DNA of 14,431 nt from Burkholderiales bacterium. Its GTDB lineage: Bacteria > Pseudomonadota > Gammaproteobacteria > Burkholderiales > Burkholderiaceae_C. The translations under genes and the position numbers were made by a program. Location: contig SBFU01000156.1 in assembly GCA_006227785.1 (NCBI GenBank), positions 1 to 14,431 of the forward strand, given 5' to 3'. Within the stretch, counting starts at the first letter, position 1. Each line of letters opens with the position of its first letter. This document shows positions 2,586 to 11,744 of this stretch, one piece after another. The notes beneath the pieces were generated by a model. It had not been told where the DNA came from. It made no database searches and saw only the letters and a list, made by a program, of their open reading frames with translations.

Positions 2586-2650
2586 GCAGGTGCAACTTTT
2601 CACAGCAGGTCCGGATAGGAAACCTGCGACAACCGGCACCTGTGGGTGCC
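2586..2650 (+). promoter_or_regulatory. Structured guaA leader with alternative hairpins
   Basis: Three pairings are visible in the 118-bp gap before guaA. GCAGGT 2605-2610 pairs with ACCTGC 2622-2627. GGCACC 2635-2640 pairs with GGTGCC 2645-2650 around a TGTG loop. CAGGTGC 2587-2593 pairs with GCACCTG 2636-2642 and encloses the first hairpin. The second and third pairings share bases and exclude each other. The terminal hairpin ends 8 nt before the ATG, where a Shine-Dalgarno would sit. No T-run follows it. The stems are only 6-7 bp, so chance is possible in GC-rich DNA. Confidence 0.35.
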
Positions 2651-2658
2651 CGAAACAC

Positions 2659-4275
2659 ATGAAACACGCCAAGATCCTCATCCTCGATTTCGGGTCCCAG
2701 GTGACCCAGCTCATTGCGCGGCGCGTGCGCGAGGCCCATGTTTATTGCGAGGTCCATCCATGTGACGTCAGCGATGAATGGATCAGGCAGTACGCCTCGG
2801 ATGGCATGCTCAAGGGTGTCATCCTCTCCGGCAGCCACGCCAGTGTTTACGAAGTCGACGACAAGGCGCCCGACGAGGTGTTCCGTCTCGGCGTGCCGGT
2901 TCTGGGCATCTGTTACGGCATGCAGACCATGGCCCAGCAGCTGGGCGGAAAGGTGGAGGGCTCCAACACCCGCGAGTTCGGCTACGCGGAGGTCAGGGCA
3001 CGCGGCCACACCGCCCTGCTCAAGGACATCGCCGACTTCCACACCCCAGAGGGCCACGGGATGCTCAAGGTCTGGATGAGCCATGGCGACAAGGTGACGG
3101 AAATGCCGCCGGGATTCAAGCTCATGGCCAGCACCGACAGCTGCCCGATCGCCGGTATGGCTGACGAGGCGAGGGGCTTCTATGCCGTGCAATTCCATCC
3201 GGAAGTGACCCATACGGTGCATGGCCGAGCGATCCTGGAGCGGTTCGTTCTGGAAATCTGCGCGGCCAACCCGGACTGGGTGATGCGTGACCACATTGCC
3301 GAAGCGGTCGATCGCATCCGCGAGCAGGTGGGCGACGAAGAGGTGATCCTGGGTCTGTCGGGTGGCGTCGACTCATCGGTGGCGGCAGCCCTGATCCACC
3401 GGGCCATCGGAGACCAGCTGACCTGTGTCTTTGTCGACCACGGACTGCTGCGCCTGAACGAGGGCGACATGGTGATGGAGATGTTCGTCGGCAAGCTGCA
3501 CGCCAAGGTGATCCGTGTGGACGCGGCCGACCAATTTCTGGGCCACCTGGCGGGTGTGAACGATCCGGAAGCCAAGCGCAAGATCATCGGCCGCGAGTTC
3601 GTGGAGGTCTTCAAGGCCGAGGCGGCCAAACTGACTTCAAGTGATGCATCAAAAAAAGGCGCCAAGTGGTTGGCACAAGGGACAATTTACCCAGATGTGA
3701 TCGAATCTGGCGGTGCCAAGAGCAAGAAGGCGGTGACCATCAAGAGCCATCACAACGTCGGGGGTCTGCCCGAGCAATTGGGCCTGAAGCTGCTGGAGCC
3801 GCTGCGTGACCTGTTCAAGGATGAGGTTCGGGAGCTCGGTGTGGCACTTGGACTGCCCCACGACATGGTTTACCGGCACCCGTTCCCTGGGCCTGGCCTG
3901 GGCGTGCGCATCCTGGGCGAGGTGAAGAAGGAATACGCGGACCTGCTGCGCCGGGCCGATGCCATCTTCATCGAAGAATTGCGTTCCACCATCGAACCCC
4001 ACAGCGGCAAGAGCTGGTATGAACTGACCAGCCAGGCATTCACTGTCTTCCTGCCAGTCAAAAGTGTGGGGGTGATGGGAGACGGCCGAACCTATGACTA
4101 CGTTGTGGCCCTGCGTGCCGTGCAGACCAGCGACTTCATGACCGCCGACTGGGCCGAGTTGCCGTACAGCCTGCTCAAGCGGGTGTCCGGACGCATCATC
4201 AACGAAGTCCGTGGCATCAACCGGGTGACCTACGATGTCAGCTCCAAGCCACCGGCCACCATCGAGTGGGAATGA
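2659..4275 (+). CDS. guaA: GMP synthase (glutamine-hydrolysing)
   Basis: This enzyme converts XMP to GMP with ATP and glutamine, the last step of guanine nucleotide synthesis in the cytosol. The N-terminal class I glutamine amidotransferase domain (about 1-205) has DFGSQ at 10-14, nucleophile Cys85 in GICYGMQ and the His180/Glu182 pair in QFHPEVTH. The ATP-pyrophosphatase domain starts near 210, with the PP-loop LSGGVDSS at 233-240. The C-terminal dimerisation domain ends in the canonical PPATIEWE. At 538 residues it is slightly longer than E. coli GuaA (525); the extra length is an insertion around [15 protein letters not shown], which I associate with betaproteobacterial enzymes. The ATG at 2659 begins at the conserved [17 protein letters not shown] at 2590 would add 23 unconserved residues and is unlikely. 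guaB, its frequent upstream partner, is not adjacent. Confidence 0.98.
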
Positions 4276-4381: not shown

Positions 4382-5773
4382 ATGAATACGGTTCTGCCAG
4401 CCTGCGAAGATGATGTGCGATGGATGCGCGAGGCTCTGGAGCAGGCGCAGCTGGCGGCCAACCTTGGCGAGGTGCCAGTGGGTGCGGTCGTGGTCAGGGA
4501 CGGCGTGGTGCTGGGTCGAGGCCACAACAGGCCTGTGAAGTCACATGACCCGACCGCGCATGCTGAAATCGTGGCCTTGCGTGAGGCGGCGGCGACCCTG
4601 GGCAACTACCGTTTGGATGGTTGCAGCCTTTACGTGACGCTGGAACCCTGCGCCATGTGCAGTGGCGCCATGTTGCATGCCCGTCTGGACAGGGTGGTGT
4701 TCGGCGCACCCGATCCCAAGACTGGATCCGCTGGCTCGGTGACCGACCTGTTCGCGCAGGTCGCCCTCAACCACCAGACGCGCGTGACCGGCGGCGTGCT
4801 GGCAGAAGAGGGCGGGGCACTTCTGAAAGCCTTCTTCCAGCATCGACGCGGCAACCCCCAACCGCTGCGCGAAGATGCCGTGCGCTGTCCTGAATCGGCC
4901 TTTGAGGACTTGCCAGGCTACCCCTGGGAACCCCACTACCTCAGCCACCTGCCATCCCTTGATGGATTGCGCATGCACTATCTGGACGAGGGGCCCGTGA
5001 CGGCGGCGCGCACCTGGCTGCTGCTGCACGGCAACCCGGCCTGGAGCTATCTGTACCGAAAGATCATCCCGCCCTTGCTCGCGGCAGGTGACCGCGTGGT
5101 GGCCCCCGATCTGATCGGCTTTGGACGCAGCGACAAACCCAAGAAAGTCCAGGTACACCGGTTCGAGTGGCATCGTCAGATCCTGCTCGAATTCATCGAG
5201 CACCTGGATCTGCGGCGGGTGATTCTCGCGGTGCAGGACTGGGGGGGGCTGCTGGGGCTCACCTTGCCCATGGCTGCACCGCACCGCTACGAAGGTCTGC
5301 TGGTGATGAACACCCTGCTGGCGACCGGAGAGGTACCTCTTTCACCCGGGTTCCTGGACTGGCGCGCCATGTGCCGACAGAAGCCCGATTTCGATGTCGG
5401 CCGCCTGTTTCGTCGGGGCAACCCCCAGCTCAGCGATGCTGAATGCGCGGCGTACAACGCCCCTTTTCCTGATCGTGGCCATCGGGCAGCCCTGCGGGCC
5501 TTTCCGGACATGGTGCCGGAATTTCCTGACAGCGAGGGCGCCGCTGTCTCTCGTGCGGCGCGAGAATTCTGGCGCCGGCAATGGCAGGGAAAAAGCCTGA
5601 TGCTGATCGGCCAGCGCGATCCGGTGCTGGGCGAGCCGGTGATGCGAGGTCTGCATGCCGACATTCGGGGGTGCCCCGAACCCGTGCTCCTGCCGGAGGC
5701 TGGCCATTTTGTCCAGGAGCAGGGAGAAAGCATCGCCCGGCTTGCCATCGAGCATTTCAAGGACCTAGCATGA
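4382..5773 (+). CDS. tadA: Fusion: tRNA adenosine(34) deaminase TadA + DhlA-like haloalkane dehalogenase
   Basis: One uninterrupted 463-residue frame holds two complete enzymes. Residues 1-155 are TadA, which deaminates A34 to inosine in the tRNA-Arg(ACG) anticodon. Zinc ligands are His60 with catalytic Glu62 (TAHAEIVAL) and the PCAMC pair Cys90/Cys93. Residues about 162-463 form an alpha/beta hydrolase of the haloalkane dehalogenase I type. It has HGNPAWSYLYRK (216-227), nucleophile Asp286 in VQDWGG, acid Asp413 in GQRDPVLG and base His442 in EAGHFVQEQG. Trp287 and cap Trp327 occupy the two halide-holding positions of Xanthobacter DhlA (from memory). Resemblance to DhlA runs over its whole length, including the DLPGYPWEPHYL opening. 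A GGAGG lies 4 nt before the ATG. No internal start with a ribosome site was found for the second domain, so it is a genuine fusion. The dehalogenase substrate is unknown. Confidence 0.95.
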   Translation: MNTVLPACEDDVRWMREALEQAQLAANLGEVPVGAVVVRDGVVLGRGHNRPVKSHDPTAHAEIVALREAAATLGNYRLDGCSLYVTLEPCAMCSGAMLHARLDRVVFGAPDPKTGSAGSVTDLFAQVALNHQTRVTGGVLAEEGGALLKAFFQHRRGNPQPLREDAVRCPESAFEDLPGYPWEPHYLSHLPSLDGLRMHYLDEGPVTAARTWLLLHGNPAWSYLYRKIIPPLLAAGDRVVAPDLIGFGRSDKPKKVQVHRFEWHRQILLEFIEHLDLRRVILAVQDWGGLLGLTLPMAAPHRYEGLLVMNTLLATGEVPLSPGFLDWRAMCRQKPDFDVGRLFRRGNPQLSDAECAAYNAPFPDRGHRAALRAFPDMVPEFPDSEGAAVSRAAREFWRRQWQGKSLMLIGQRDPVLGEPVMRGLHADIRGCPEPVLLPEAGHFVQEQGESIARLAIEHFKDLA

Positions 5774-6699
5774 GCCACATCTACATCTTTTCCCCCTCAA
5801 GCGCCGTGCGCGACAAGGCGGCTTTCCGACGCGGTGTACGCCACCTGAAGGCCTTGGGTCATGAGGTTGAAGTCGACGAGGCGGCCCTGAGCAGCCACCT
5901 GCGATTTGCCGGTGATGATGCCACCCGGGTGGCTGCGATCGGTCGCGCGGCGGCCAGCAAGGCCGATGTCGCCCTGATATCGCGTGGCGGATACGGCCTG
6001 ACACGCATCCTGCCCGCATTACCCTACCGGCCCCTGGCCCAAGCGATTGAACGGGGCACCCGTTTTGTCGGTCTGAGCGACTTCACAGCCTTTCAGTGTG
6101 CCTTGCTGGCGCGCACAGGCGCCGTGACCTGGGCTGGACCCGCCCTGGGCGAGGACTTCGGCGCCGAGCAACCGGATGACATCATGCAGGCGTGTTTTGA
6201 TGATCTGCTGTGTGGGCAAGGCGAGGGCAGCGGCTGGCGTTTGCCGTCAAGAGATGTCGGCGCTCTGCCAGTGGACCGCCGCACAGGGCAGCCGTCCATG
6301 CGGGTCAGCAAGGCCGTGCTCTGGGGAGGCAATCTGTCGGTGATCGGGTCACTGGTGGGCACACCCTACCTGCCGGCGGTCGAAGGGGGGGTGCTGTTCC
6401 TGGAGGATGTCAACGAGCATCCGTACCGGATCGAACGCCAACTGACGCAACTGCTGCATGCCGGCGTGCTCGGCAAGCAGAAAGCCATCCTGCTCGGCGC
6501 TTTCACCCGCTACAAGACGGTGCCACACGATCGGGGGTTCAAGTTGCAGTCCGTGGTGGACTGGCTGCGGTCGCAGGTGAAAGTGCCCGTGTTGACCGGC
6601 CTGCCCTTTGGTCACGTGCCGACCAAGGTGCTGCTGCCGGTGGGAGAGCGGGTGTCGCTGATGCTGGAGGGCAGGGATGCCCTGCTTTATTGGGGCTGA
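5770..6699 (+). CDS. ldcA: LD-carboxypeptidase (peptidase family S66, LdcA-like)
   Basis: This 309-residue protein belongs to family S66, which cuts the L-Lys/mDAP-D-Ala bond of murein tetrapeptides during peptidoglycan recycling in the cytosol. The Ser-Glu-His triad is present: Ser103 in the nucleophile elbow GLSDFTA, Glu212 in FLEDVNEHPYR and His282 in GLPFGHVP. The length matches the family (about 300-310). The start ATG at 5770 overlaps the stop of the TadA fusion as ATGA, so translation is coupled. An open frame continues upstream to 5581 but lies inside the fusion gene and lacks conservation. No signal peptide is seen, as expected for a cytosolic recycling enzyme. A terminator-like hairpin lies within its last codons (6671-6690). 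Confidence 0.95.
   Translation: MSHIYIFSPSSAVRDKAAFRRGVRHLKALGHEVEVDEAALSSHLRFAGDDATRVAAIGRAAASKADVALISRGGYGLTRILPALPYRPLAQAIERGTRFVGLSDFTAFQCALLARTGAVTWAGPALGEDFGAEQPDDIMQACFDDLLCGQGEGSGWRLPSRDVGALPVDRRTGQPSMRVSKAVLWGGNLSVIGSLVGTPYLPAVEGGVLFLEDVNEHPYRIERQLTQLLHAGVLGKQKAILLGAFTRYKTVPHDRGFKLQSVVDWLRSQVKVPVLTGLPFGHVPTKVLLPVGERVSLMLEGRDALLYWG
6671..6691 (+). terminator. Terminator-like hairpin inside the end of ldcA
   Basis: GCAGGG at 6671-6676 pairs perfectly with CCCTGC at 6680-6685 around a 3-nt ATG loop, followed by TTTATT at 6686-6691. G-U pairs could extend the base. This has the form of a short intrinsic terminator, but it lies within the coding sequence, ending 5 nt before the TGA at 6697-6699. 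The T-tract is short, interrupted by A, and followed by GGGG. No better terminator is seen in the 21-bp convergent gap that follows. Confidence 0.4.
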
Positions 6700-7427: not shown

Positions 7428-8369
7428 ATGGCTGAACTGACCATCGCCTTTGTCGACCTGACCGGCAGCGTCTCCGTGTTCGAGACGTTGGGCAATGACC
7501 GGGCAACGAGGGCGGTGACCAAGCTCACGCAGTGGATCGGGGCCAAAGGGCTGGAAAATGGCGGCAAGGTGGTCAAGATGCTGGGCGATGGCGTTTTGCT
7601 GTCCTTCACCAACAACCGGCTGGCCGTCGAGACGATGTCGCAAATACAGCAGGAGCACTCTCAGCGGGTGGCCCAATGGCCGAAGCGGTTGAAGCTACAG
7701 ATGCAGATCGGCATGGCCCGTGGGCAGGTGGTTCAGGTGGATGGCGATTGCTTTGGTGATGCTGTCAACGTGGCCTCTCGCCTGAGTGACCTCGCCGGTC
7801 CGGAGCAGATTCTGGTGACCGACACGGTCATCCGAAAGCTCGGGGCGCGCCACGGCGTGCGAAGCCGCAGCCTGGGGCCCATGCGCATCAAGGGTCGGGC
7901 AGAGCCCTGCGAGGTGTTCCGGATCGAGTGGCAGCCCGAGATGCTGTCGGAGTTCCTGACACTGCCTTCCGATCTGCACTCGATGGCCATGACCCCGGAG
8001 TCGGTGTTCGGAGGAATTCAACTGGGCTGGCTGGATGCCAGCCGGGCCTTCGACATCACCGATCTGCCGGTCAAGATCGGCCGCATCCCGGAGGCCGATT
8101 TCGTGGTGAATGACCCGCGCGTTTCCCGCATCCATGCCACCCTGGACATCCGCTCGGGCAACTATGTGCTTGAAGACGTCAGCAGTTACGGAACTTGGGT
8201 CCGCTTTGCCGGAACCGACAATGTGATCTCACTGCGCAGGCAGGAGTGCCTGCTGCACAGTGACGGTGAAATCGCGATGGGAACCGCCTTCACCGACTAC
8301 AGCGCACCCACCGTGACCTTCCGGCTGGTGGATGGCGCCATGGTGCTCGGCCACTCGCGGCTGCCTTGA
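7428..8369 (+). CDS. Class III adenylate cyclase with C-terminal FHA domain
   Basis: This 313-residue soluble protein has an N-terminal class III nucleotide cyclase domain (about 1-168). Metal-binding Asp10 lies in AFVDLTGS and Asp54 in MLGDGVLLSF. Lys50 and Asp111 occupy the base-selecting positions expected for ATP. Asn114 and Arg118 in DAVNVASRL stabilise the transition state. The set is complete, so it should make cAMP. Residues about 215-295 form an FHA domain with KIGR, VSRIHA and SSYGTW, a phosphothreonine-binding fold. The cyclase may thus be tethered to, or controlled by, a phosphorylated partner (inference). No membrane segment is seen. The ATG at 7428 is the first start after an in-frame stop at 7401. 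It has no Shine-Dalgarno, only a pyrimidine-rich leader. The penicillin-acylase gene follows after 41 bp and is probably in the same transcript. Confidence 0.95.
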   Translation: MAELTIAFVDLTGSVSVFETLGNDRATRAVTKLTQWIGAKGLENGGKVVKMLGDGVLLSFTNNRLAVETMSQIQQEHSQRVAQWPKRLKLQMQIGMARGQVVQVDGDCFGDAVNVASRLSDLAGPEQILVTDTVIRKLGARHGVRSRSLGPMRIKGRAEPCEVFRIEWQPEMLSEFLTLPSDLHSMAMTPESVFGGIQLGWLDASRAFDITDLPVKIGRIPEADFVVNDPRVSRIHATLDIRSGNYVLEDVSSYGTWVRFAGTDNVISLRRQECLLHSDGEIAMGTAFTDYSAPTVTFRLVDGAMVLGHSRLP

Positions 8370-8410: not shown

Positions 8411-10870
8411 ATGCGTTGGGTTTTCCGGGTCCTGACGCTGCTTCTGTCCGTTGCACTGCTGCTGGTGGTCGCTCTGTCGGTCTACGGCTGGCGCAGCCTG
8501 CCCCGACTGGACGGGCGCCTGGCCTTGGCGGGGCTGCAGCATGAGGTTCAGGTCAATCGAGACGCCAGCGATGTGACCCATATCCTGGCCCGGGACCCCA
8601 GGGATGCCTGGATGGCGCTGGGCTATGTGCATGCCCAGGAGCGCGCATGGCAGCTCGAATTCAACCGGCGTCTGATGCGCGGTGAGCTGTCCGCCGTGTT
8701 TGGTTCCACCACACTCGAAACCGACAAGCTGATGCGGACACTGGGCATTCACCGCGCCGCCAGTCGACAGCTCCAGGGACTCAGCCAGGATACCCAGGTC
8801 GCGCTGCGGGCCTACGCCGATGGGGTCAACGCGTTTTTTGCCGGTCAGGAGCAGGCCCTGCCGCTGGAGTTCCTCGTTCTGGGCGCAGACCCGACTGACG
8901 AGGCGCGAAGCGGGCAATACTGGACGCCCGAAGACAGCGTCGGCTGGTCCTTGATGATGGCCCTTGACCTGGGCGGCAACTGGGGCAACGAATTCGCACG
9001 GCTGACAGCCCTGGAGGTCATCGACACAGAAGCGCTGTGGACATTGTTTCCTCCCTATCCGGGTGAGCGGCCAGCGGCTACCGCCGATCTGGCCACGCTG
9101 TACCAGGATCTTGATGTGTACCGACGAGGTGCGCCCACCGAGCAGCGCTCCCAGAGCCAAGGTGGTGTGCTGGCCTGGCTGGATGATCCGGGCAGCAATG
9201 AAGGAAAAGGCTCAAACAACTGGGTGGTCTCTGGTGAGCGGAGCGAAAGCGGCGCACCGCTGCTGGCGAACGATCCCCATCTGGGCCTGAGCGCGCCAGC
9301 GCTCTGGTATTTCGCCCGTTTGCAGGCGCCCGATGTCGCATCGCACAAGGGTCTGGATGTGGTGGGCGCCACATTGCCCGGCGCCCCCGTGGTCGTCCTC
9401 GGGCGCACGCGTGAGGCAGCCTGGGCATTCACCAACACCGGCCCTGACGTGCAGGACCTGTATCTGGAGCAGCTCCATCCGGATGACCCGTCGCTTTACC
9501 GCGTTCCGTCGGATGACGGCCTGCCGCGCTGGATGCCCTTCGACGAGCGGGTCGAACGCATAGCGGTCAAGGGCGCGGCAGATGTTGAGCATCGGGTCCG
9601 ACACACACGTCATGGTCCGGTCATCAGCGACGCGCAGTCTCGCTACGCAGATGTCATCGATACCTCGCGCCATGTACTGGCCTTGCGTTGGACCGCTCTC
9701 GACGACGATGTGCGCAACATCGATGCCAGTCTGGCCGCGAACAGGGCCCGCTCTGTCGAGGACCTGATCGGTGCGTTTGCAAACATGCATGCACCCATGC
9801 AGAGTGTGCTGATGGCGGACAGGGCTGGCCGCATCGCCTTCAAGGCAGCTGGCAGGGTACCCTTGCGCCACGTCGACAACGACATTCAGGGTGTTGCGCC
9901 GTCCCCCGGATGGGATGCCCGTTACGACTGGATCGGTTGGTTGCCCTATGACGAGACGCCTTTCGATGACGGTTCAAGAGGCTGGATCGCGACCGCCAAC
10001 CAACGGGTGCATGGGCCTGACTATCCGCACTTTCTGACGCAGGACTGGGTGATGCCCTACCGGCAGCAGCGCATCGAACAACTGCTGCAGGCTCGGGACC
10101 GCCACTCGCCCGAGAGCTTCCGGCTGATGCAGGCTGACCTGCACGCCGAATCGACCCGGCGCCTGCTGCCCTATTTGCGGGCGGCCAAGCCCGCGCACGA
10201 GCTGGGTGAAGCCGCGTTGCGGGTGCTGGCGGACTTTGATGGTGTGATGCGCGGTGACGCGGCCGGCCCGCTGATCTACAGCGTCTGGGTTGACGAATTC
10301 ACCCGGGACGTGATTGGCGGGCGTCTGGGCAAGGCGCGCTTTGAAAAGCTGTACGGCAAGCGTCTGTTCCGCTCGGCGGTGGAGCTCATCCTGGAGCGTA
10401 ACGATGCCCACTGGTGTGGCGAGGGAGGATGTGCCGCCGCAGTGACCACCGCCCTGGACCGCGCCCTGGAGCGGATCGCAAAGGAGCAAGGGCGCGACCC
10501 GCGTTCATGGCGATGGGACAGGGCACACCCGGCGATCTCAGTGCACCGGCCGTTCAGCAACGTGCCTTACCTGGCGCCCTGGTTTGAGGTGCGCGCGCCC
10601 ACCGGTGGCGATCCTTTCACCCTCAATGTGGGCCAGTACCACCTGGACAAAGCCGATGCGCCGTTCGCCAACCGCCATGCAGCCAGCCTCAGGGCCATCT
10701 ACGACCTGTCGGACGCCGGGCAGGACCTGTTCATCTACCAGACCGGGCAGAGTGGTCACGTGATGTCCCGGCGCTATCGGGACATGAGCCCATCGTGGGC
10801 CGATGTTCGCCTGCGACCGTTGCGCATGCAACCGGAAGGCTGGGAAAGGCAGCTGACGCTGCATCCCTGA
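8411..10870 (+). CDS. Penicillin acylase family Ntn-hydrolase (membrane-anchored or exported precursor)
   Basis: This 819-residue precursor belongs to the N-terminal nucleophile hydrolases that cleave amide bonds of penicillins, acyl-homoserine lactones or other N-acyl compounds. Residues 1-25 form a hydrophobic signal or anchor with Arg at 2 and 6. The alpha-chain region follows, with GYVHAQERAWQLEFNRR (71-87) typical of the family. Autocatalytic cleavage is expected before Ser268 in EGKGSNNWVVSG, which becomes the beta-chain nucleophile. Asn342 in FTNTGPDVQDLY fits an oxyanion-hole role. The beta chain ends with the family motif around GQSGHVMSRRYRD. The length suits the family (about 780-850). 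It sits 41 bp after the cyclase-FHA gene and has a strong ribosome site. It converges on the EF-hand gene with only 10 bp between stops. Substrate is undetermined; quorum-signal hydrolysis is possible but not shown by the sequence. Confidence 0.95.
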   Translation: MRWVFRVLTLLLSVALLLVVALSVYGWRSLPRLDGRLALAGLQHEVQVNRDASDVTHILARDPRDAWMALGYVHAQERAWQLEFNRRLMRGELSAVFGSTTLETDKLMRTLGIHRAASRQLQGLSQDTQVALRAYADGVNAFFAGQEQALPLEFLVLGADPTDEARSGQYWTPEDSVGWSLMMALDLGGNWGNEFARLTALEVIDTEALWTLFPPYPGERPAATADLATLYQDLDVYRRGAPTEQRSQSQGGVLAWLDDPGSNEGKGSNNWVVSGERSESGAPLLANDPHLGLSAPALWYFARLQAPDVASHKGLDVVGATLPGAPVVVLGRTREAAWAFTNTGPDVQDLYLEQLHPDDPSLYRVPSDDGLPRWMPFDERVERIAVKGAADVEHRVRHTRHGPVISDAQSRYADVIDTSRHVLALRWTALDDDVRNIDASLAANRARSVEDLIGAFANMHAPMQSVLMADRAGRIAFKAAGRVPLRHVDNDIQGVAPSPGWDARYDWIGWLPYDETPFDDGSRGWIATANQRVHGPDYPHFLTQDWVMPYRQQRIEQLLQARDRHSPESFRLMQADLHAESTRRLLPYLRAAKPAHELGEAALRVLADFDGVMRGDAAGPLIYSVWVDEFTRDVIGGRLGKARFEKLYGKRLFRSAVELILERNDAHWCGEGGCAAAVTTALDRALERIAKEQGRDPRSWRWDRAHPAISVHRPFSNVPYLAPWFEVRAPTGGDPFTLNVGQYHLDKADAPFANRHAASLRAIYDLSDAGQDLFIYQTGQSGHVMSRRYRDMSPSWADVRLRPLRMQPEGWERQLTLHP

Positions 10871-10880
10871 CCGCGAAGGC

Positions 10881-11744
10881 TCAGGCCTGGGCGTTCTGGC
10901 TGTTGTCGCTCAAGGGAGACATGCGGTTGGTCAGCTGTGCGGCCGCTTCCAGTTGTGAGCCCAGCTGCGACACCAGCGCCGACAACTCGGTTGGACTGAT
11001 CTGCCCGTCCTGGTTGCTGTCGGCGCCATTGAGCAAGGCGTTGAGCGCGTCGGCAGGCTTGATCGCCTCTGGCGCAGGGGACGCGGATGCCGATGTCGGT
11101 GCGGCAGCCACCGGCGACGCAGGTGCGGCAGAGCCGTGGGCGGCGGGAGTCACTTGCCAGCCGGGCATGACGGGCGCCCATCCCATGGGCATCCAGCCGG
11201 GCATCATGCCGCCAGGAGCCAGACCACCCATATCGAAGGTGGTGTATGTGCTGAAGCTGGCAAATCGATGGACAACAGGGGCGTGACCGACGGCCATGCC
11301 TGCACCGGCCTGGTTGACGCCTTCCGTGAACTCGGCCCGGGACAGATGGCCGTCGCCATTGCCGTCCAGTCGGGCAAACAGTCCGCCCTCAGAACCGGGT
11401 GTCCGGGCAGATTTGGCGCCGAAGCTGGCCATGGTGCCCTCGCCGCTGACCGATTGCAGCAGGCCCGAGACCATATTGACCAGTTCCCCGCCATTGAGCG
11501 AACCGTCGCCGTCGGTGTCGACGCCACCAAACAGCGTGTTCGGATCCTCGGTCACGGGCATGCCCATTTTTTCAGACAGCTTGTCCAGTGCGGCCTTGAA
11601 CTCGCCCTGATCCACACCACCGCTGCCGTCGGTGTCCAGTTTGCTCACCAGTTTGCCCTGCATCTGGGCGGCCAGTGCCGTCAGGGCCGAGGCCCCCAGT
11701 CCGTTGCGGGCGGTGTTCGACAAGATGGATTCCAGCGTGCTCAT
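10881..11744 (-). CDS. Four-EF-hand calcium-binding protein with Met/Pro/Gly/Trp-rich linker
   Basis: This 287-residue protein has four canonical 12-residue calcium loops. They are Asp37-Glu48 (DTDGSGGVDQGE), Asp76-Glu87 (DTDGDGSLNGGE), Asp127-Glu138 (DGNGDGHLSRAE) and Asp242-Glu253 (DSNQDGQISPTE). Each keeps Asp at position 1, Gly at 6 and Glu at 12, so all should bind calcium. Loops 1-2 form a likely pair, loop 3 is followed by a long spacer, and loop 4 is near the C-terminus. The spacer holds MPGW-MPMGW-MPGW repeats (181-196) and an Ala/Pro/Ser-rich stretch (197-226). No classical signal peptide or membrane segment is seen, so location is open. The ATG at 11744 has an AAAGGA Shine-Dalgarno about 7 nt upstream. 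It lies downstream of the aot-like genes on the same strand but 156 bp away, probably with its own promoter. Function is unknown beyond calcium binding. Confidence 0.92.
   Translation of the reverse strand: MSTLESILSNTARNGLGASALTALAAQMQGKLVSKLDTDGSGGVDQGEFKAALDKLSEKMGMPVTEDPNTLFGGVDTDGDGSLNGGELVNMVSGLLQSVSGEGTMASFGAKSARTPGSEGGLFARLDGNGDGHLSRAEFTEGVNQAGAGMAVGHAPVVHRFASFSTYTTFDMGGLAPGGMMPGWMPMGWAPVMPGWQVTPAAHGSAAPASPVAAAPTSASASPAPEAIKPADALNALLNGADSNQDGQISPTELSALVSQLGSQLEAAAQLTNRMSPLSDNSQNAQA

Follow-up and report, generated by a model that had tools for sequence, protein, structure and literature searches.

What does a haloalkane dehalogenase (HLD) do at the end of an essential tRNA-editing enzyme? 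The question is raised by one gene of the window (the whole 14,431-nucleotide stretch of Burkholderiales DNA that we analysed), in which TadA and an HLD share a single frame, as the sequence-only reading had described. The gene is one ATG-to-TGA open frame without an internal stop (Table 1). A point in favour of an assembly or sequencing artefact is that the source assembly consists of 506 contigs and is 67.6% complete. However, full-length relatives with 84-88% identity to the window protein (P0002-P0005) come from other contigs, and complete genomes as well as named isolates carry the same fusion. This rules out, as had been claimed, a missed stop or frameshift between the domains, and we rejected an artefact as practically inconceivable. 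The absence of a second ribosome site, also claimed, needs some tempering. GGAGG lies directly 5' of the ATG of the fusion; inside the gene there are in-frame ATG, GTG or TTG codons at residues 167, 177, 196, 198 and 206, two of them preceded by a purine-rich stretch. Since the spacing of these stretches is merely 2-3 nt, an internal start is unlikely.

By sequence, each half belongs to its family. The TadA half passes the curated NF008113 cut-off and has H60, E62, C90 and C93; the second half passes the NF002043 cut-off, with D286, H442, D413, W287 and W327 in register with 1b6g and 2xt0. All catalytic residues named in the earlier reading (H60, C90, C93, D286, W287, W327, D413, and H442) are as it stated. 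The catalytic pentad of HLD-I enzymes consists of Asp, His, Asp, Trp, and Trp. Among PDB chains, the second half matches 2xt0 best (347.7 bits) and then DhlA (1b6g; 295.4 bits); among the best 60 of 279 PDB matches, each covers one half only in its best stretch. Solved TadA chains (PDB 1z3a and others) share with the window protein the curated cut-off, the zinc site and the active-site Glu; the matched chains measure 144-227 aa, whereas the window protein continues into a hydrolase of ~300 residues. 2xt0 and DhlA align nearly end to end with the window HLD and have the Asp nucleophile, the acid, the base, and the two Trp at corresponding positions, but they are free-standing and have a Glu where the window HLD has N218. 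The TadA half would, as its family suggests, perform A34-to-I34 editing of tRNA-Arg, and the hydrolase half is probably active on some halogenated compound. The window's copy may both dehalogenate and fill a second role.

Table 1. Features of the tadA-HLD fusion gene and its neighbours, in window coordinates
Feature	Position	Strand	Basis or remark
guaA (GMP synthase) ORF, upstream neighbour	2590..4275	+	PF00958, PF00117
tadA-HLD fusion gene	4382..5773	+	463 aa; single frame and both profile matches
TadA domain, tRNA adenosine(34) deaminase, residues 10-163	4409..4870	+	NF008113 195.7 bits, cut-off 150
H60-A61-E62, zinc ligand and catalytic Glu	4559..4567	+	Kept in 100% of fused family loci, whether intact or dead
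C90..C93, zinc ligands	4649..4660	+	Kept in 100% of the family's fused loci
Linker and HLD start, motif PLRxDA[LV]RxP, residues 161-170	4862..4891	+	R168 in 75/75 dead and 99/99 intact family loci
Haloalkane dehalogenase (HLD-I-type alpha/beta hydrolase), residues 166-461	4877..5764	+	NF002043 320.3 bits, cut-off 265; 2xt0 and 1b6g best PDB matches
K254-K255, lysines after SDKP, marks of the family's fusion	5141..5146	+	Conservation counts
D286, nucleophile, and W287, halide-binding Trp	5237..5242	+	Both in 103/103 intact loci, together in 0/75 dead
W327, second halide-binding Trp	5360..5362	+	103/103 intact loci
Cap motif PFPDxG with G366, residues 361-366	5462..5479	+	Conservation counts
D413, catalytic acid	5618..5620	+	In register with 1b6g and 2xt0
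H442, catalytic base	5705..5707	+	In register with 1b6g and 2xt0
ldcA (LD-carboxypeptidase)	5770..6699	+	PF17676, PF02016; ATG overlaps the fusion's TGA (ATGA)

Whether the fusion is frequent in relatives had been left as a question, and the answer is that it is. In an even sample of 200 genomes of the family, with fusion states assigned by hand and by position, 108 carry the fusion (46 intact, 59 without the dehalogenase site, and 3 cut by contig ends), and the remaining 92 have an ordinary unfused TadA. The fusion occurs in one or more genomes of 76 of the 141 genera. When these 200 genomes were searched with A3, a profile built on the C-terminal domain, fused and free HLDs stood apart from the rest: the scores of the matches listed form an upper group (140 bits or more) and a lower one (84 bits or less), and the upper group is made up of the fusions and 13 free dehalogenases. 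Beyond the family, an order-level sample of 250 genomes (243 outside the family) yielded further fusions only in four of the five genomes of another Burkholderiales family, f3, and among the matches listed from 299 genomes of the phylum there was no further family with the fusion. The best 120 database relatives, window protein included, all have deaminase and hydrolase Pfam domains; where names are given, they are mostly TadA, with one "CMP deaminase." Intact carriers include Acidovorax facilis, Acidovorax radicis, Limnohabitans, Polaromonas, Ramlibacter albus, and Hydrogenophaga. The form without the site occurs in Diaphorobacter nitroreducens (L163), Acidovorax sp. MR-S7 (L164), Acidovorax soli DSM 25157 (L175), Ramlibacter paludis (L177), Paracidovorax cattleyae (L194), and Alicycliphilus denitrificans (P0138). 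In the titles and abstract openings searched, with subscription papers outside the scope, we found no description of a TadA-HLD fusion, and PMC11862945 gave no match to the terms sought.

To follow the dehalogenase site, we used 178 non-redundant fused loci, an uneven sample found by similarity to the window or to P0138, or by place; a duplicate (L001), four loci cut by contig ends (L123, L203, L223, and L227) and eight identical copies were left out. We classed a locus as intact if D286, W287, D413, and H442 were present, which gave 103 intact loci (four of them f3) and 75 without the site, hereafter called dead. W327, which is no part of this definition, is also present in 103/103 intact loci. 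No dead locus (0/75) keeps DWGG, the nucleophile Asp and halide-binding Trp, and an Asp aligned with D286 occurs in five of the 75. The catalytic positions survive in 7% (D286 and W287), 29% (W327) and 17% (D413 and H442) of dead loci, residue positions in strongly shortened domains being dependent on the alignment. Besides L042 (see below), nine dead loci (L097, L098, L187, L192, L194, L197, L228, L230, and L240) have W327, D413, and H442 by alignment. N218 is present in 1% of dead loci, and in 8/55 dead proteins of an overlapping, mostly metagenomic database set. The stretch after TadA measures 172-380 aa in the dead loci, with a median of 229. These remnants are still HLD-derived: all 45 A3 members, of which 41 are dead, give an NF002043 match at E ≤0.001. 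We considered another hydrolase family behind the partial matches and rejected it; the partial matches are eroded copies of the same domain. One of the five loci with an Asp aligned to D286 (L042, genome G330) also keeps the acid, the base, and W327, with W287 replaced by Asp; it is perhaps a hydrolase of another kind. Of 32 free HLDs, chosen by similarity, 31 are intact, and the other one has an Asn instead of the nucleophile Asp.

How did the dehalogenase come to be there? Of 186 fused loci whose sequence extends far enough (eight of them duplicates), 169 have ldcA on the same strand no more than 300 nt beyond the TadA frame; it lies further downstream in 11 and was not found in 6. Unfused tadA also adjoins ldcA in 13 of 17 loci, among them all eight unfused family loci of the set, so the dehalogenase appears to have entered a standing tadA-ldcA pair. 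The slot was probably filled twice, because on a tree of HLD domains the four f3 domains sit among other free dehalogenases, apart from the family clade. The family's intact domains form one clade of 99 (support 0.82), which is adjoined by a free HLD (L037; support 0.945). The f3 fusion (L033-L036, and P0241-P0280 assigned by an identity gap) has the same domain order, the same slot, and an intact site, and is apparently independent of the family fusion. On a tree of TadA plus LdcA, which holds only loci with LdcA, 156 of the 157 fused family loci (86 intact and 71 dead) form one clade without an unfused member at a support of 0.56; all supports are FastTree local supports, and the deep ones are modest. 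The remaining fused locus, L134, groups as the sister of 24 unfused loci that form a clade (support 0.996), and this placement makes an early fusion, followed by domain loss in the large unfused clade, also possible. L134 (genome G126) has a dead fused domain; its TadA is nearest to fused relatives and its LdcA to unfused ones. Its placement is unsafe because the two proteins point to different relatives, and a recombination at this operon is possible.

On the maximum-likelihood tree, catalysis was lost 24 times, a count that assumes loss only and no regain; it falls to 20 with branches below 0.9 support collapsed, to 10 at 0.95, and to 7 at 0.98. For the whole domain, a single loss is likely in the 30 unfused family TadA that we compared, drawn from the 92 unfused family genomes. 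Of the other 29, 27 fall outside the fused clade and two (L157 and L274) are absent from the tree. The likely case, L256 (G157:C15), is an unfused TadA; the other sampled member of its genus (L093) carries an intact fusion. By its TadA, L256 lies closest to fused lineages (78% to L111), and there is no LdcA in the stretch examined; the tree places L256 elsewhere, with weak support. A free HLD standing in for the lost activity found no support: of the 13 family genomes with a strong free HLD, nine have an unfused TadA, three an intact fusion, and one (G041) a dead fusion.

The dead domain shows the signature of a pseudoenzyme under purifying selection, with loss of activity judged from its residues. 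In 12/12 dead pairs, which do not overlap but of which several stem from the same dead clade, dN/dS (Nei-Gojobori) ranges from 0.13 to 0.41, and all upper 95% bootstrap limits are below 1 (highest 0.75); in two pairs (L187/L228 and L041/L211), catalysis may have gone after the split. For intact domains, dN/dS is 0.06-0.35 in 44 pairs, two of which are f3. The TadA active site is kept in 100% of the family's fused loci, those with a catalytically dead HLD included, and each of 24 chosen fused genomes has no strong TadA besides the fused protein (188-239 bits; the next at most 77.5). We looked for matching changes on the TadA side. V38 and G95 alone differ from the eight unfused family TadA, and they are not fusion-specific because both equal the outgroup state.

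Which residues outlive catalysis? R168, H216, D243, G246, G248, S250, D251, and P253 are kept in 75/75 dead loci, and K252, K254, H259, H264, P361, P363, D364, and G366 in 92-99%. Most of these are shared by HLDs at large and may be purely structural. A few have a different distribution. K254 is found in 99/99 intact family loci and 73/75 dead ones (the other two have Arg), but in 0/32 free HLDs (one Arg); in the database set, it is present in 261/262 intact and 55/55 dead proteins. A Lys or Arg at position 255 occurs in 99/99 intact family loci, 73/75 dead loci, and 3/32 free HLDs (one Lys and two Arg), and G366 in 99/99, 74/75, and 1/32, respectively. Unlike the family fusion, f3 is without K254, K255, and H259: among the 40 f3-type clusters listed, K254 and K255 occur in none and G366 in three. 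By these counts, K254 and G366 arrived with the fusion of this family and have persisted beyond the loss of catalysis. H259 was tried as a fusion-specific residue and rejected, since the nearest free HLDs have it and it is thus older than the fusion. Overall charge gave weak support as a sign of RNA binding. The domain is not clearly basic, with a median pI of 6.63 (intact), 7.34 (dead), 5.93 (near free HLDs), and 6.46 (far free HLDs), and 6.3 in the window.

We suggest that the HLD domain has a role that needs no dehalogenation and that probably serves TadA, a reading that we regard as likely, if by no means secure. Several points speak for it: the fusion in 108/200 genomes, a sole TadA that is fused in 24/24, dN/dS below 1 in 12/12 dead pairs, the survival of K254 and G366 in dead loci, the 31/32 free HLDs that are intact, and at least 20 losses of catalysis at 0.9 support versus one likely loss of the whole domain in the 30 unfused TadA compared. 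In this scheme, an HLD-I gene would have entered the tadA-ldcA pair in an ancestor within the family and been joined in frame to tadA, and from then on, the only TadA of these fused bacteria would have carried an HLD domain. The second role would have been gained before the family's fused lineages diverged, independently of the dehalogenase site. It might be that of a docking, stabilising, or tRNA-contact module for TadA; we favour docking or stabilisation, possibly with a touch on tRNA through K254/K255. Its conserved pieces would be the N-terminal segment around R168, the SDKPKK..H...H stretch, and the PFPDxG cap, whose residues are observed and which may make up one face. Because this role would have persisted, catalytic residues could go again and again while the domain was kept. 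TadA in general does not need it, since 92 of the 200 family genomes have an ordinary TadA. Nor are K254/K255 needed in every TadA-HLD fusion, because f3, without both, has intact catalytic residues in 40/40 clusters listed, with no dead member among them. A fuller version, in which the dehalogenase was recruited by fusion as an accessory module, its surface changed to contact TadA or tRNA, and catalysis shed in ~20 lineages, with the window's protein as a bifunctional intermediate, we put forward tentatively.

Other explanations bear on the same data. The dead domain might have no positive function, with selection only keeping the tail foldable, given that misfolding would poison an essential TadA. 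Retained residues do lie mostly in the N-terminal half of the fold, and the domain has repeatedly shrunk and shed its active site. However, a stop codon after TadA would be a simple escape from such a tail, an unfused TadA serving so many relatives, yet only one likely whole-domain loss turned up. The near-invariance of the fusion-new K254 and G366 in dead loci is also left unexplained, and we consider this explanation unlikely, though deserving of attention.

The sequence-only reading had offered two ideas of its own. Fusion might tie the dehalogenase to constitutive expression from tadA; if this were all, dehalogenation would be the function and dead copies would decay neutrally. Such coupling could explain the intact copies, whose dN/dS is low and which all keep W327 although it played no part in their definition. 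It does not explain the purifying selection on dead copies in every pair compared, or why dead copies outnumber intact ones in the family sample (59 versus 46); as the sole explanation, it is improbable. The other idea was a different substrate, linked to RNA or translation, on which the hydrolase acts enzymatically. The fusion to TadA and the lysines that came with it would suit this, and a role other than dehalogenation is indeed apparent. An enzymatic substrate is nevertheless unlikely as the shared function, because the dehalogenase site is gone in 59 of the 105 classifiable fused genomes, and we give it very little credence.

A catalytically dead partner that helps a tRNA A34 deaminase is known from eukaryotic ADAT2/ADAT3. 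There the dead part is a deaminase subunit, whereas in the TadA-HLD fusion it is a hydrolase domain. The fusion offers living intermediates, from a free HLD with a plain TadA, through an intact fusion and one in which little besides the nucleophile and its Trp is missing, to a shrunken remnant. It would thus be a natural replicate series for the passage from an enzyme to a non-enzymatic part of another enzyme, on a tRNA-editing gene. In Comamonas-like bacteria, a dehalogenase domain that may or may not work is concealed in many entries named "TadA." In one use case of EnzymeMiner 2.0, proteins with additional Pfam domains were dropped in dehalogenase mining, and mining of that kind would drop intact TadA-HLD fusions (PMC13355053).

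The rest of the window holds further genes. Positions 7428-8369 (+) encode a 313-aa protein with an adenylate/guanylate cyclase domain and an FHA domain, and positions 8411-10870 (+) an 819-aa protein of the penicillin amidase family (PF01804, 667 bits). By eye, minus-strand ORFs at 219-2540 are ketosynthase-like and acyl-carrier-protein-like and lie beside a PAP2 phosphatase, and a 287-aa ORF at 10881-11744 (-) has several DxDxDG-type, EF-hand-like loops.
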